Of a stretch of DNA of 64,000 bases, positions 5,536-11,630 are shown one piece after another. This DNA comes from Haloarcula sp. DT43 (lineage in GTDB: Archaea; Halobacteriota; Halobacteria; Halobacteriales; Haloarculaceae), in assembly GCF_037078405.1 (NCBI RefSeq), contig NZ_JAYMGZ010000003.1:186001-250000 (forward strand), read 5' to 3'. The notes beneath the pieces are model-generated. The model did not search any database. It was not told the DNA's origin and saw nothing but the letters and a program-made list of their open reading frames with translations. How positions within the stretch are numbered: the first letter of the stretch is position 1; each line of letters starts with the position of its first letter. The translations under genes and the position numbers were made by a program.

Positions 5536-6780
5536 CTACGTGGACTGGAAGTCCGAGAGCTTCGCTTCGTTGTCGACGAGATTGGTGACGGACTTGTGGA
5601 TGCCGACATCGTCGACGGTCTTTTCGAGCGCGGCGAGAATCATCTCGGGGTCCATCTCAAGGGAGTACTCGCGGTAGGTTCCGCCGCGGCGGCCCTCGTT
5701 TCGCTCGATGGCCGAGATGATGCCCAGCATCGACAGTTCGCCGAGGTGGTCACGCATCCGACGCGGGACGAGCGGGTCGATGCCGGCCTTCTCGGCGAAG
5801 TTCGTGTATCGGGGCCTGATGTCCCGCGTCCGGGCCGGCGTCTTCCCCTCCTGGTCGAGCGTGACCATGGCGTAGACGACCAGATGACCGTGTTGCGTGA
5901 GTCCGGAGATGCCCTCCTGGATGCGGCCACGCTCCAGAACGTCGCGCGCCTCCCGGACCAGCGACTCCGAGATAGTGTCCGTGTCCTTGTCCCGGGCCAG
6001 GTCGCCCGTCTTCATCAGGAGGTCGAGCGACTGCCGTGCGTCGCCGGCGTCTTTGGCCCCGTAGGCGGCACACAGTTCGATGACGCCGTCTTCGAGGACG
6101 CCGTCGTGGAACGCCACGTCAGCGCGCTGCTGGAGAATCTGTATCAGTTCCTTCGCGTCGTACGCGGGGAACTGGATTTCCTCCTCACAGAGCGAACTCT
6201 TGACCTTCGGGGAGAGGTCGTCGCGAAACGAGAAGTCGTTCGAGATACCGATGATACCGATTTTCGCAGAACTCAGGTTGGCGTTCGCCCGCGCACGCGG
6301 GAGTTGATAGAGGATACTGTCGTCCTCGATGTGGTCGACCTCGTCGAGAACAATGTAGATAGTGCCGCCACAGGCGTCGAGTTCGGTCCAGAGCATGTCG
6401 TACACCGTCGCGCGGGGGTAGCCCGTCGTGCTTATCTGGCTCGTTTCGTCCCTGAACTCGTTGACGAGTCGAGTGGCTATCTGGTAGCTACTGGAGAGTC
6501 CGTCGCAGTTCAGCATCTTCACCGTGAGGTCGATGTCCTCGTACTTCGCCGCGTCCTCTTCGAGGTGGTCGATGAGGTACCGCGTGCCGGCCGTCTTCCC
6601 GACCCCAGTCTTCCCGTACAGGAAGATGTTGTTCGGCTGTTCGCCGTTGATGACAGGCTGGAGAGCCGCCCGATATCTGTTCAGTTCGGTGTCGCGCCCG
6701 ACGAGGTTCTCGGGCTGATAGTCCTCCCGGAGAGCGTCCCGGTCAAGGTATATCTCGGTGTCGCGTTCGAACATCCCCAT
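5536..6780 (-). CDS. orc1: Orc1/Cdc6 replication initiator
   Basis: This AAA+ origin-recognition protein binds ORB repeats and helps load the MCM helicase. With the ATG chosen here (MGMFERD) it is 414 residues, normal for the family; an in-frame upstream start would add 14 untypical residues. Walker A is GKTGVGKT at residues 56-63 and Walker B is IVLDEVD at 143-149. Sensor-type motif GISNDFSFRDDL is near 180, and a C-terminal winged helix occupies roughly 320-400. The gene is flanked on both sides by ORB-like repeats, which marks a self-contained replicator. Haloarchaea carry many orc paralogues, so which origin class this belongs to needs a phylogeny. Confidence 0.93.
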   Translation of the reverse strand: MGMFERDTEIYLDRDALREDYQPENLVGRDTELNRYRAALQPVINGEQPNNIFLYGKTGVGKTAGTRYLIDHLEEDAAKYEDIDLTVKMLNCDGLSSSYQIATRLVNEFRDETSQISTTGYPRATVYDMLWTELDACGGTIYIVLDEVDHIEDDSILYQLPRARANANLSSAKIGIIGISNDFSFRDDLSPKVKSSLCEEEIQFPAYDAKELIQILQQRADVAFHDGVLEDGVIELCAAYGAKDAGDARQSLDLLMKTGDLARDKDTDTISESLVREARDVLERGRIQEGISGLTQHGHLVVYAMVTLDQEGKTPARTRDIRPRYTNFAEKAGIDPLVPRRMRDHLGELSMLGIISAIERNEGRRGGTYREYSLEMDPEMILAALEKTVDDVGIHKSVTNLVDNEAKLSDFQST

Positions 6781-6819
6781 GGTCGTTACCTGACGTATCG
6801 GATGGAGCCCACATAAAAC

Positions 6820-7148
6820 CACCCCTGTCCGCAGTGTCCGGAGTGTCCGCTGTTCCTGAGCTTATAAAGAATCGGTGGGACCCTCCCACCCCACTATGTC
6901 CGCAGTAACTAGAGTGAGGAGAGGAGGGGGTAGAGAGAACTATACACAAGAGAAAAGTTTATAATAGTCTCCTGTGAGCTAGACCGTAATGCAGTTTGAC
7001 AGCTGTAGTGCAACAGGCTACAGCGATATCTAGTGTGGAAACCGGCACAGTTCGGACCTCTGCCGACCGGATACCTCCGCAAATCTTGCCGCCGCCTCTC
7101 CCACCTCCCTGGCCGTTCTCGAAGAACAGCGGACAAAGTGGGGTGGGA
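6820..7148. other. Predicted replication origin core
   Basis: Upstream of orc1 are two forward ORB-like elements (about 6820-6838 and 6840-6855). A third, at 6882-6908, carries a C-rich extension (CTCCCACCCC before the core). An inverted copy at 7124-7147 carries the complementary GGGGTGGGA extension. Between this facing pair lie a purine-rich strip (6910-6938) and an AT-rich patch (about 6939-6972, including AAAAGTTTATAATAG) that could be the unwinding element. Facing G-string ORBs around AT-rich DNA are the standard archaeal origin layout. Confidence 0.72.
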
Positions 7149-7225
7149 GTGTCCCTGTCCATCGACGACCCGATTCCGTCAACTTAGCCCCTCTACTTTC
7201 TGTCTTGGGATTTGAACCACCGCTG

Positions 7226-7500
7226 AACACACCGTGATGTCCGCAGTTCCGGACGAGAACGGCGTAGAACTGCGGACATCGTGGTGTGGGTTCGCGACAG
7301 GCACGGTTCGGTCAGTCCGGTTCGGACACCACCATGTCCGCAGTAATCGGTTCCCGTTTCCAGCCGACGGTAGAACTGCGGACATCGTGGTGTTCACCGC
7401 TCGATTCACTCCTGTACTCTGCGTCAGACGCCACAATGTCCGGAGTAAATGCCACGGAGATCACCTCTAACACGGTGTTACTCCAGACATCGTGGTGTTC
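7226..7500. repeat. Array of six ORB-like elements in three inverted pairs
   Basis: Elements alternate forward (7226, 7325, 7428) and reversed (7267, 7373, 7479). Each is about 22 bases, with core ATGTCCGCAGT or its complement ACTGCGGACAT. Each pair faces inward with 40-50 bases between element starts, and pairs repeat every 99-103 bases, close to ten helical turns. I see no convincing gene in this stretch. It is probably an extended Orc1-binding region of the origin. Confidence 0.7.
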
Positions 7501-7563: not shown

Positions 7564-7617
7564 TTTTGGCTAGCCTAAAATCCGCAAGCTATGTATATCG
7601 TTTAGGTTGCCCTAAAG
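7564..7617 (+). promoter_or_regulatory. Two iron-box-like operators around the surface-protein promoter
   Basis: TTTTGGCTAGCCTAAAA (7564-7580) and TTTAGGTTGCCCTAAAG (7601-7617) are imperfect palindromes built on TTAGG..CCTAA half-sites, like DtxR/IdeR/Idr iron-repressor sites. A TATA-like GTATATC lies between them, and the gene's GTG starts three bases after the second. Binding would block the promoter. Confidence 0.6.
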
Positions 7618-7620
7618 AAC

Positions 7621-10191
7621 GTGGCACGGAACACTGATATCTCGAAGGAACCGATGGGGCGAGACCGCGTGTTCGAAGCGTTTCGAACGCGCGTTTCAGC
7701 TTCGGTCTCGTCTGACAGCAACACGACGGGGAGTACGGACAAACTCCGAAGCCTCGTTCTCTCTTGGCTGGTGGTGGTTTCCGTATTCGCCGGCACCGTC
7801 GCGTTCTCCGGGGGCGTGGCCGCCGCTGCGAACGTCGGCGTCGAGCAGGCGGGAGAGTACTCGGACAGTGGGGATGGGGCAAGCACGGTCGAACTGGCGT
7901 TGAGCGACCCTGTGACGAACGGCCTCGACGGGAACGGCGAGCTGGAACTCTATCTCGACGGCAAGGAAGTCTCCGATTCGCTGTTCGATGGCGTCGCTCG
8001 GGACGGCACCGCCGGTCGGGTCGCAATCGAACTCAGCCGAGACGTGACTCCGAACCAGAACCTGACGGTCAAACTCACCGACTTCGGGAGCGGTTCGCTC
8101 ACGGCGCGGGACGTCGCCGTGACTTCCCGAACGTTTACGCCCGACTCTGGCGACCGGTCGTACACGAACCTCTACCATGGTGTGGTCGTCGCTATCGAGG
8201 ACGCAGACGCCGGCTCCGACACCGCCCTCCGCATCGAGCGGGCGGACGGCGGCATCGTCTTCCAGGACGACTACGTCGACAACAGCCAGGTCTTCGTCGT
8301 CGACACCGCGGACCTCGACCCCGGTCAGGACTACGACATCACGTCCGGGGCTGACACGGCCGGATTCAAAGTCAACGACCTCGGTCTCGACGTCGAGATG
8401 ACCGAATCCAACGTCTCCGAGGAGGACGCCATCGTCGCCGAGGTGACCGCAATCCGCGGTGGCACGGCGGCCACCGCAACGCTGTCGGACAGCGACGGCG
8501 AAACGGTCGACTCGATTGCTACGGACCTCGAAAGCACGGAAACCGTCGAGTTCGACTTCGGACCCCGGAGCACGGCCGGGTCCCCGTACACGGTCACTGT
8601 CACGGACACTCAGACCGGTATCACGGCCGACTCCGAGGAGGTCTCGGTCACCGAAAGCATCGAAGGCGAGGTACAGTTCGCGGAACGCGTCGTCGCCGAC
8701 GACCGCGGCGACGTGGTCAGCGTCACCTTCGACCTCTCGAACACGGACGAGGGCTACGTCACTATCGGCGACAAGAGCGAGGCGAACTACGCCATCTCCG
8801 GCCAAATAACCGACGACGACGACGGCGACGGCGAAGTCACCGTCGAGTTCAACAGCTATCTGGCGGGGGTTCCGAACAGCGGCAACGCTACCGTCGCGGC
8901 GAGTGACGTCCTCAGCGCCACCGGAGACGACGACATTTCCGGCGTCAGCGAGCACGGGTCGTTCGAACGCAGCGACCTCACCGCCGACACGCTGGCCGCG
9001 GGGAGCTATCCAATGAACGCGACCGCCGGCACGAGCCACAGCGACAGTCCCGACAGCGTCGGCACCCTCCGGCTCCGGGACCGCTCTACCGACCGCATCG
9101 GGAGCTGGGTCGCGCCACTGGGTGCCTCTCTCTCCTCCGGGGATATCTACGACAGGGTCGGGCACAACCTCACGCGGGCGGACGAGATAGCCGACGGCGA
9201 CGTGGTCGTCCACCGTGTCACCGCGTCCGGCATCGAAGGGCCGCTGGACTACCGAGAGGACGTCAGGGGCGCGGGCGATACGACGGCCGCGTTCCTCCAG
9301 GCGACCGGCGACAGTGGCGCGCTCGACCTCTGGGTCAACCGGACGAACGTCGGCGCGAACGCCGACGGGGACCCGCTCCAGCTCAACGCCTCTAACACGG
9401 TCGTCGTCGACGACCCCGATAACGACACGTACTTCGTCGCCGTCGAACTCGCCGATGCAGAGTACCGGAGTGACACCCCGGTTCACGACGGTGACGCCGA
9501 CGAACTGACGGCTGGCTTCTCCGTCACCGGAACGACCGGGCTGGCCGATTCCGCCGACAGCGTGGAAGACACGTACGAAATCACTGACCGCGATGCGACG
9601 CTCACTACGACCGACGACGTCGTGCTCGCGCAGGCCGCCGCCGACCAGCCCGTCACGGGCACGACGTCGGTCGCGCCCGGCTCGGAACTCACGGTGCGGC
9701 TGGCATCGGAGAGCGACGCGAACCCGTTCATCAGCCGACCCGGGGCGACGGTCACGCGGAACGGGACGTTCACCGCGACGGCCGACATGAGCGGCCACTC
9801 CGTGGGAACGAACTTCACCGCGACTGCCCTCGATGTGACCGGCGAGGCGTTCGGCACCGCCGCGGACGGGCAAATCGTCGCAGTTGCTACCACGAACGGT
9901 GGCGGCGAGTCCACCGGTGCGAACGGCACCGACTACGAAGGGGCAGCCGAGGACACGATTGCGGACCTGTCCAACGAACCGACGGAGAGTACGCCCGGGG
10001 CGTCGACCGAACGACCGACCGCGACACTGTCGACGCCGACACCGTCGACGGTAGCACCGACAGAGACGGCAACCACAACCGAACGGACGGACGTCGCAAC
10101 CACGGCCGCTTCCGGGCCGGGTTTTACCGTCGGCGTCGCAGTGCTCGCGCTCGTCGCTGCTGCGTTGCTGACCGTCCGCCGCGGTAGCTAA
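7621..10191 (+). CDS. Large PGF-CTERM surface protein (BGTF-type)
   Basis: This 856-residue secreted protein has a late hydrophobic signal (about residues 42-69, ending GGVAAAA). A long beta-rich ectodomain of haloarchaeal surface-glycoprotein type follows, then a Thr/Pro/Ser stalk (about 795-828), and it ends with GPGF plus a hydrophobic helix and VRRGS. That ending is the PGF-CTERM signal cut by archaeosortase A and replaced by a lipid anchor. Several NxS/T sites could be N-glycosylated. The start is GTG, directly after an iron-box-like operator, so expression may rise under iron limitation. A role in metal or haem capture is inference from that operator and the binding protein downstream. 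Confidence 0.82.
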   Translation: MARNTDISKEPMGRDRVFEAFRTRVSASVSSDSNTTGSTDKLRSLVLSWLVVVSVFAGTVAFSGGVAAAANVGVEQAGEYSDSGDGASTVELALSDPVTNGLDGNGELELYLDGKEVSDSLFDGVARDGTAGRVAIELSRDVTPNQNLTVKLTDFGSGSLTARDVAVTSRTFTPDSGDRSYTNLYHGVVVAIEDADAGSDTALRIERADGGIVFQDDYVDNSQVFVVDTADLDPGQDYDITSGADTAGFKVNDLGLDVEMTESNVSEEDAIVAEVTAIRGGTAATATLSDSDGETVDSIATDLESTETVEFDFGPRSTAGSPYTVTVTDTQTGITADSEEVSVTESIEGEVQFAERVVADDRGDVVSVTFDLSNTDEGYVTIGDKSEANYAISGQITDDDDGDGEVTVEFNSYLAGVPNSGNATVAASDVLSATGDDDISGVSEHGSFERSDLTADTLAAGSYPMNATAGTSHSDSPDSVGTLRLRDRSTDRIGSWVAPLGASLSSGDIYDRVGHNLTRADEIADGDVVVHRVTASGIEGPLDYREDVRGAGDTTAAFLQATGDSGALDLWVNRTNVGANADGDPLQLNASNTVVVDDPDNDTYFVAVELADAEYRSDTPVHDGDADELTAGFSVTGTTGLADSADSVEDTYEITDRDATLTTTDDVVLAQAAADQPVTGTTSVAPGSELTVRLASESDANPFISRPGATVTRNGTFTATADMSGHSVGTNFTATALDVTGEAFGTAADGQIVAVATTNGGGESTGANGTDYEGAAEDTIADLSNEPTESTPGASTERPTATLSTPTPSTVAPTETATTTERTDVATTAASGPGFTVGVAVLALVAAALLTVRRGS

Positions 10192-10390
10192 CCGGGTCCC
10201 CAGCCGGGCACTTCAGATTCGGACGAATCGACGGTGGCTTCCTTTCTCGACCATCGAAAACGGCTGGACCTATCAGCCGGCGGAACAGCCGCCGCAGGAA
10301 CGTCTCGGCCGAGGATTCCGGAAGCGGGGCGTATCTATTCCGGAACTCCGCGCCAGGAGAAATCATCGCTCAGTCGCTGCCGTCGCCTGC

Positions 10391-11611
10391 CTAGACGCCT
10401 TGTCCGCCCGTGATAATCTCGGCGACCCGGTCGCGGTCGAAGAGCTGTTCCTCCGCCGGAATCTCCGGGTAGTGGGCCCCGTTCTCGTAGGTCGGCCACT
10501 CGCCGAAGACGTCCGGGTACAGCTGTTTCGCGGTCATCTCTATCTGGAAGAGGTTCATAATCGGTCCGTGGTACCGCATCCCGTGTGCGTACACGCGGCC
10601 GTTCTGGACCGCCGAGAGCTCTCGGCCGACGCTGTGGGACGCGAGGGTCTCCCGGACGGAGTCCATGTCGTACCGCGGCGTCATCCCCCAGAGGTGAAGA
10701 ATCACGTCCGGGTCCGCCTCTAACATCGTCTCGTAGCCGACCGACCCCCAGAGCCCGTCCCACGTCTCGTCCCCGAAGGCGTCGTTCGCGGCGAGCGGGC
10801 GGGTGTCGGCGAGCCAGAACCCCGGGCGGTTCAGGTGGTACGTCCAGAACTGGCCGTCGCCGAGCGTCACCCGCACTGCGGTCGGGCGCTCCTCCGCGGG
10901 CGGGAGGTTCGACTGGATAGTCTCCACGAGTTCCCCGTGGACCGCCTTGAGTTGTTCGTACCGCTCCCGCTCCTGGAACACCGAGGCGACACGCCCGAAC
11001 AGTTCCCAAAGCGTGTAGTATCGGTAGTCTTCGCTATAGGGTTCCTGCGGGTCGCCGTGCGTGCCGCTGTAGAAGTTGCCGAAGAAGGGACCGACGTTGT
11101 CGGTCAACTCCTCGATGTCGCTCACGTCCCAGTTGTCCTGGGCAATCGCCCAGGCGGGGTCGAGGAGGTGCACGTCGCTGTCGAGGCCGTAGAAGAACTC
11201 CTTGGTGAAGTTCGTGTAGGGATTCGGGAGCCCTTCCCAGTCGAAGGAGACGCCGGGGAGCCGCTCGTAGTAGTGGCGCATCGACGGTCCGGCCATCTCC
11301 GGCACGAACATCGCGTTGACCGCGTCGCCGTGGCCGAGCGCGACCAGCATGTCGGCGTACTGGTTGTACATCGTGAAGACGTTCTCCGGCACCGAGTCGA
11401 ACTCGACCTCGCCGACCGGTGAGAGGGAAGCGGTGTAGGAGCCGTCGGTTGTCGGCGACGTGCCCGCAGTGCCGTCATTCGCGGTCGCCGTTTCGGACGG
11501 GTCGCCGTTGTCACTCGAGCACCCGGCCACGATTGCCGTACCGAGCACCGCTCCACCGCCTGCGAGGTAGTCACGCCGCGTGAGCCCGCCCGTCACGTCT
11601 GTGTTTCCCAT
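10391..11611 (-). CDS. Iron-siderophore-type ABC substrate-binding lipoprotein
   Basis: This 406-residue binding protein has a Tat signal (TRRDYLAGGG) and a lipobox ending AGC at residue 31, then a Thr/Ser-rich linker. The mature part fits the BtuF/FhuD-like fold: paired lobes with segments such as VFTMYNQYADMLVALGHGDAV and ADPDVILHLWGMTPRYDM. It would capture ferric siderophore, haem or cobalamin at the cell surface. An iron-box-like palindrome overlaps its start, supporting iron. No permease or ATPase gene is adjacent, so it must use a transporter encoded elsewhere. Confidence 0.8.
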   Translation of the reverse strand: MGNTDVTGGLTRRDYLAGGGAVLGTAIVAGCSSDNGDPSETATANDGTAGTSPTTDGSYTASLSPVGEVEFDSVPENVFTMYNQYADMLVALGHGDAVNAMFVPEMAGPSMRHYYERLPGVSFDWEGLPNPYTNFTKEFFYGLDSDVHLLDPAWAIAQDNWDVSDIEELTDNVGPFFGNFYSGTHGDPQEPYSEDYRYYTLWELFGRVASVFQERERYEQLKAVHGELVETIQSNLPPAEERPTAVRVTLGDGQFWTYHLNRPGFWLADTRPLAANDAFGDETWDGLWGSVGYETMLEADPDVILHLWGMTPRYDMDSVRETLASHSVGRELSAVQNGRVYAHGMRYHGPIMNLFQIEMTAKQLYPDVFGEWPTYENGAHYPEIPAEEQLFDRDRVAEIITGGQGV

Positions 11612-11612
11612 G

Positions 11613-11630
11613 TTTTAGGTAAGCCTAATA
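11613..11630 (-). promoter_or_regulatory. Iron-box-like palindrome upstream of binding protein
   Basis: TTTTAGGTAAGCCTAATA matches the half-site pattern of the two boxes before the PGF-CTERM gene and begins two bases before this gene's ATG. The position would block a leaderless promoter when bound by an Idr/DtxR-type repressor. Confidence 0.6.

Follow-up and report, generated by a model that had tools for sequence, protein, structure and literature searches.

A shortened S-layer glycoprotein paralog behind iron boxes in Haloarcula sp. DT43, and its possible part in coat remodelling

Results

The window analyzed here is a stretch of 64,000 nucleotides from Haloarcula sp. DT43 (contig NZ_JAYMGZ010000003.1, positions 186,001 to 250,000). 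It contains a gene for a surface protein, a gene for a substrate-binding protein, and three palindromic sites that were located by motif scan (Table 1). The motif TTAGGNNNNCCTAA is exact at two of these sites and carries one mismatch at the third. The two genes are convergent, lying tail to tail, and therefore do not form an operon. The surface gene has its GTG start 5 bp past the end of the proximal box, and the binding-protein gene has its ATG 4 bp past the end of the third box. An earlier note on this DNA had described three palindromes at the starts of two exported-protein genes outside an operon, and it was right in this, including the coordinates. The product of the binding-protein gene matches the Peripla_BP_2 profile (33 bits, cut-off 27.5), as expected for the binding protein of a transporter.

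Table 1. Coordinates of the genes, boxes and other features discussed in the text (C1 to C4, contigs of this genome)
Feature	Location	Strand	Remarks
orc1/cdc6 gene	5536-6822	-	
Repeats, direct and inverted	6826-7498		TGTCCGCAGT / ACTGCGGACATCGTGGTGT
Distal iron box	7565-7578		TTTGGCTAGCCTAA (7564..7579, TTTTGGCTAGCCTAAA); one mismatch to TTAGGN4CCTAA; starts at -56 of the start codon
TATA-like element	7590..7599	+	TATGTATATC; between distal and proximal boxes
Proximal iron box	7602-7615		TTAGGTTGCCCTAA; exact; starts at -19 of the surface gene
S-layer glycoprotein paralog, 856 aa	7621..10191	+	GTG start at 7621; NCBIfam/Pfam profiles, AlphaFold2 model; ~40-aa N-terminal extension, halo_sig_pep, Ig-like domains, DUF7827 (aa 343-470), BGTF (aa 665-753), PGF-CTERM
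Substrate-binding protein, lipoprotein-type, of FecCD-type iron/siderophore ABC transporter	10391..11611	-	ATG at 11611; Peripla_BP_2
Third iron box	11615-11628		TTAGGTAAGCCTAA; exact; gene strand reads TTAGGCTTACCTAA; starts at -17 of the binding-protein gene
csg-type tandem pair	C1:1269504, C1:1273437		
Exact boxes	C3:287342, C3:289738		upstream of FecCD permease and its binding protein
Exact box	C4:320301		upstream of another Peripla_BP_2 protein gene
Exact box	C4:324616		upstream of Fbp-like binding-protein gene
Exact box	C4:323406		upstream of RGP-type gene adjoining the Fbp-like binding-protein gene (L026:17407-18601)
Exact box	C1:843655		upstream of DUF5059/plastocyanin lipoprotein gene
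Exact box	C2:804916		upstream of GMC oxidoreductase gene (L024:7274-8930)
Exact box	C4:313864		upstream of DUF7547 gene
Exact boxes	C1:757848/757884		upstream of DtxR-type regulator gene
Exact box	C1:846184		no clear target
DtxR-type gene, split	C1:757088-757506 (L022:7089-7507)		two frames
Paired box behind DUF5059 gene	C1:846149 onward (L023:11150-11330)		
Paralog remnant, Haloarcula vallismortis	L086:6001-6407		residues 565-700 only
Extra boxes, four relatives	L064:10692; L065:8971 and 9006 (pair); L066:12048; L067:7746		

By its sequence, the surface gene encodes a shortened paralog of the Haloarcula S-layer glycoprotein (csg). Its product has the haloarchaeal surface signal peptide, the BGTF domain and the PGF-CTERM anchor (32.3 bits, cut-off 24.5) that are characteristic of csg proteins. 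It scores 276 bits against the S-layer glycoprotein family NF041335, below the equivalog cut-off of 1100, and is therefore a paralog and not an equivalog. The genome has its own csg-type tandem pair, which is 48-49% identical to the paralog, and identity to the csg proteins of Haloarcula salina reaches 61%. Orthologs of the paralog, at 61-63% identity, were found in five relatives, all of them Haloarcula. In a phylogenetic tree the six proteins form one clade (100/100) nested among the csg proteins, with csg2 of H. salina as sister, as common descent with the csg genes would have it.

The csg1 and csg2 proteins of the genus (G0HV85 and G0HV86 in Haloarcula hispanica; PMC8640222) share with the paralog the signal peptide, DUF7827, BGTF and PGF-CTERM, and the homology extends over the whole shared length. 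The paralog differs in having the N-terminal extension and in being encoded by a single gene, with iron boxes, elsewhere in the genome. It also lacks DUF7282, the domain that precedes the Thr/Pro-rich stalk, which is present in all 19 csg proteins scanned and in none of the six paralogs. The paralogs are less acidic (Asp plus Glu make up 19.8% of the mature chain vs 23.1% in csg), although the difference over the shared region is modest (19.9% vs 22.3%), and they have 15 N-glycosylation sequons where csg has 20. Values of dN/dS between paralog pairs (0.18-0.43) indicate purifying selection and hence a maintained protein. At the same time, the paralog is found in only 6 of the 32 genomes of the genus and survives in Haloarcula vallismortis as a decayed copy, and so it is dispensable.

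That copy adjoins the binding-protein gene. The gene order in H. vallismortis, cdc6 - paralog remnant - binding protein, is the same as in the window, and cdc6 itself is 98% identical. The repeats that separate the orc1/cdc6 gene from the surface gene in the window resemble a replication origin. In one relative (G023) both the paralog and the binding-protein gene lie at contig ends, consistent with the order in the window. In the other four relatives the paralog sits next to adk and further housekeeping genes, with none for a binding protein in the vicinity, and it has kept its boxes there. Close orthologs of the binding protein have the exact box at -17, also in genomes without the paralog. 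Since unlinked orthologs keep their boxes, the paralog and the binding protein are linked as members of a regulon, not of an operon. That the paralog and its neighbour in the window might be an operon, or work as a pair, was rejected on the convergent orientation and on the four orthologs beside adk.

About 0.0015 exact sites would be expected per window under an order-2 model, and the probability of at least two is about 1e-6. Sites with up to two mismatches are not enriched in the window (4 found, 7.85 expected), nor are one-mismatch sites in the genome as a whole (28 vs 33 in the control). Mismatched sites were accordingly rejected as evidence on their own; the count was limited to exact sites and the boxes paired with them, and the case rests on these. 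A genome-wide scan, which the earlier note had proposed, gave 13 exact sites in 3.75 Mb against one for the reversed pattern, and most of them are at iron-type genes (Table 1). The resemblance to DtxR/Idr-type iron boxes that had been claimed holds for the half-site but not for the spacing. The arms of the boxes in the window are 4 bp apart, whereas those of the bacterial DtxR/IdeR consensus are 9 apart, and so the likeness to bacterial iron boxes is one of half-sites.

Boxes are paired at seven places in the genome, six with a spacing of 35-37 bp and one of 26 bp. Of the 146 genomes of the family, 109 have the paired layout (CCTAA N20-26 TTAGGN4CCTAA), while control matches are near zero. In the loci that were read it mostly precedes genes for binding proteins, DUF5059 proteins, FecCD permeases and DtxR-type proteins, and the proximal box usually ends 4-8 bp ahead of the start codon of the binding-protein, FecCD or DUF5059 gene. 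The operator palindrome is thus enriched genome-wide ahead of iron genes and is conserved at orthologous targets, namely the surface gene (6/6) and the close orthologs of the binding-protein gene, as in a haloarchaeal iron regulon. Shared iron-type regulation of the two genes, as first suggested in the earlier note, is well supported by this distribution.

Several of the loci have features of their own. The DtxR-type gene beside the paired boxes is split over two frames here and is a single frame in relatives, which may be a real break or an assembly error. A paired box lies directly behind the DUF5059 gene with only a 42-codon ORF 8 bp past it, which may represent a small protein, an RNA or a relic. 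A gene of the "reversibly glycosylated polypeptide" type stands behind an iron box and adjoins an iron ABC transporter, and the gene of a GMC-type oxidoreductase, an unexpected regulon member, begins about 12 bp behind another.

The boxes of the paralog gene start at -56/-57 and -19 in all six orthologs, and no other part of the upstream region is as well conserved; the distal 18-bp block, TTTTGGCTAGCCTAAAAT, is invariant. No box was found between -150 and +60 in any of 34 csg-type genes. In the six paralog genes the two boxes enclose the TATA-like element, and about 5 bp separate the proximal box from the start codon. From this spacing we infer a leaderless mRNA, whose transcription start the proximal box would overlap. 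A box immediately ahead of the TATA element, with a second one apparently covering the start site, implies a repressor architecture. Iron-type regulation of the paralog gene is strongly supported by these sequence features.

Extra iron boxes occur 80-115 bp upstream of the paralog promoter in four relatives, with only tiny ORFs behind them. As no clear gene follows these boxes, promoters have evidently been shuffled here, and the paralog might have inherited its promoter from a neighbouring iron gene, the boxes controlling something else and the protein having no iron-related role. This is very improbable, however, given that the paired boxes sit so close to the start codon, are so well conserved in all six orthologs and have been kept in two distinct gene contexts.

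AlphaFold2 models of the paralog and of a csg protein (pLDDT 70.9 and 75.0, respectively) both consist of tandem Ig-like domains. The paralog model has only generic Ig/fibronectin-like repeats, complement and macroglobulin repeats being among the matches listed, and the matches listed for the csg model include bacterial S-layer proteins. A haem-binding fold, for which the earlier note had proposed structure prediction, was not among the matches listed for the paralog; this is weak evidence, as absence from those matches proves nothing. The sequence match to the Haloferax volcanii csg protein (PDB 7PTP; PMC8640222), likewise a chain of Ig-like domains with PGF-CTERM, differs from that to the Haloarcula proteins in being confined to the C-terminal stretch, mainly stalk and anchor, and no iron link is reported there. 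An equivalence of DUF7282 with domain D6 of that protein is not claimed, because it is the Thr-rich stalk and PGF-CTERM that account for most of the profile match (chain 658-793).

Discussion

NEAT-domain proteins of Gram-positive bacteria hand over their ligands to binding proteins. By analogy, the paralog could be a surface receptor or scavenger that binds haem, a siderophore or Fe3+ and passes it to the neighbouring binding protein, and co-regulation with binding proteins and the tail-to-tail position of the two genes, here and, with the paralog reduced to a remnant, in H. vallismortis, would fit such a role. However, the paralog has no Cys and few His, only four positions of the shared region hold a residue that is invariant among the paralogs and departs from the csg consensus, the Ig-like matches are generic, and four of the orthologs lie away from any binding-protein gene. 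We consider a receptor of this kind quite improbable. A haem receptor in particular finds no support in the residue composition, the near lack of paralog-specific fixed residues or the matches listed for the model. The surface receptor for iron or haem ligands envisaged in the earlier note thus gives way to an S-layer paralog, and its alternative term, a sieve, probably comes closer to the truth since S-layers are sieves.

The surface gene is best regarded as that of an iron-regulated S-layer paralog, which would be made in starvation and would alter the coat and with it the access of siderophores; we put the probability of this reading at roughly 60%. The best reading is of an S-layer variant that is repressed by iron and made in starvation, and that probably enters the coat or is mingled with its subunits. 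This suggests that the cell may change its outer coat when iron is short. The paralog may also be an iron-regulated structural cover without a role in transport, i.e. a cheaper or stress-adapted subunit concerned with adhesion, shedding, or protection from phage or oxidants. An S-layer paralog with fewer sequons, one domain missing and no sign of a ligand site would suit that purpose, but control by iron rather than by general stress would then be left unexplained, and we regard it as unlikely.

For the iron-regulated S-layer variant, the following mechanism may be proposed. The sequences show that the paralog descends from csg genes, has lost DUF7282 and gained the N-terminal extension, and stands behind a promoter whose two boxes flank the TATA element, a layout seen at iron-uptake genes as well. 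With iron in sufficient supply, a Fe2+-bound repressor of the DtxR family would occupy both boxes and block TBP/TFB and the start site. When iron is short, the repressor would leave, and the paralog and the binding protein would be made together. Less certainly, the paralog would be exported and sorted by ArtA via its PGF-CTERM. It may then join or interrupt the S-layer lattice, and the missing stalk-adjoining domain and less acidic surface may alter, perhaps ease, the passage of Fe(III)-siderophores to the binding lipoproteins beneath the coat; in these last two steps we place the least confidence. A DtxR-family protein is a candidate for the Fe2+-dependent binder of the box, on the circumstantial ground that in five genomes a DtxR-type gene stands behind paired boxes. 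It counts against the proposal that the gene so placed in this genome is split over two frames.

Some relationship to known systems can be seen. A "ferR regulon signal" precedes the fhu operons of Haloferax volcanii (PMC11349517, citing Leyn and Rodionov 2015). As far as the FerR/DtxR-type regulon of haloarchaea is outlined in that account, it shares with our system the palindromic box before FecCD/Peripla_BP_2 transport genes and a DtxR-type gene; what differs is the S-layer paralog among the targets here, and the pairing of boxes about 35-37 bp apart around a TATA element is what we see for the family of Haloarcula. HVO_A0466/HVO_A0467 of H. volcanii include a secreted glycoprotein with predicted Ig-like folds, in an operon with the protein most strongly induced by iron starvation (PMC11349517). 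The pairing there is with an RND permease in an operon, whereas the S-layer paralog described here has no operon partner. An archaeal S-layer paralog regulated by iron was not described in any of the papers that we searched.

What draws attention to the locus is the probable control of an S-layer paralog by iron. Outer membrane receptors are not known from haloarchaea. The pore of the solved haloarchaeal S-layer is narrow and restricts access to the membrane (PMC8640222), and on both counts one may ask how bulky iron-siderophores reach the binding lipoproteins. A starvation-type second S-layer subunit in some Haloarcula, a csg paralog without DUF7282 that opens or retunes the coat for iron-siderophores, is a tentative answer that we find conceivable, if somewhat doubtful. 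A paralog under an iron switch, with one defined domain missing, makes the question of siderophore access directly testable, and, if the proposal is true, it would mean nutrient-controlled remodelling of an archaeal S-layer.
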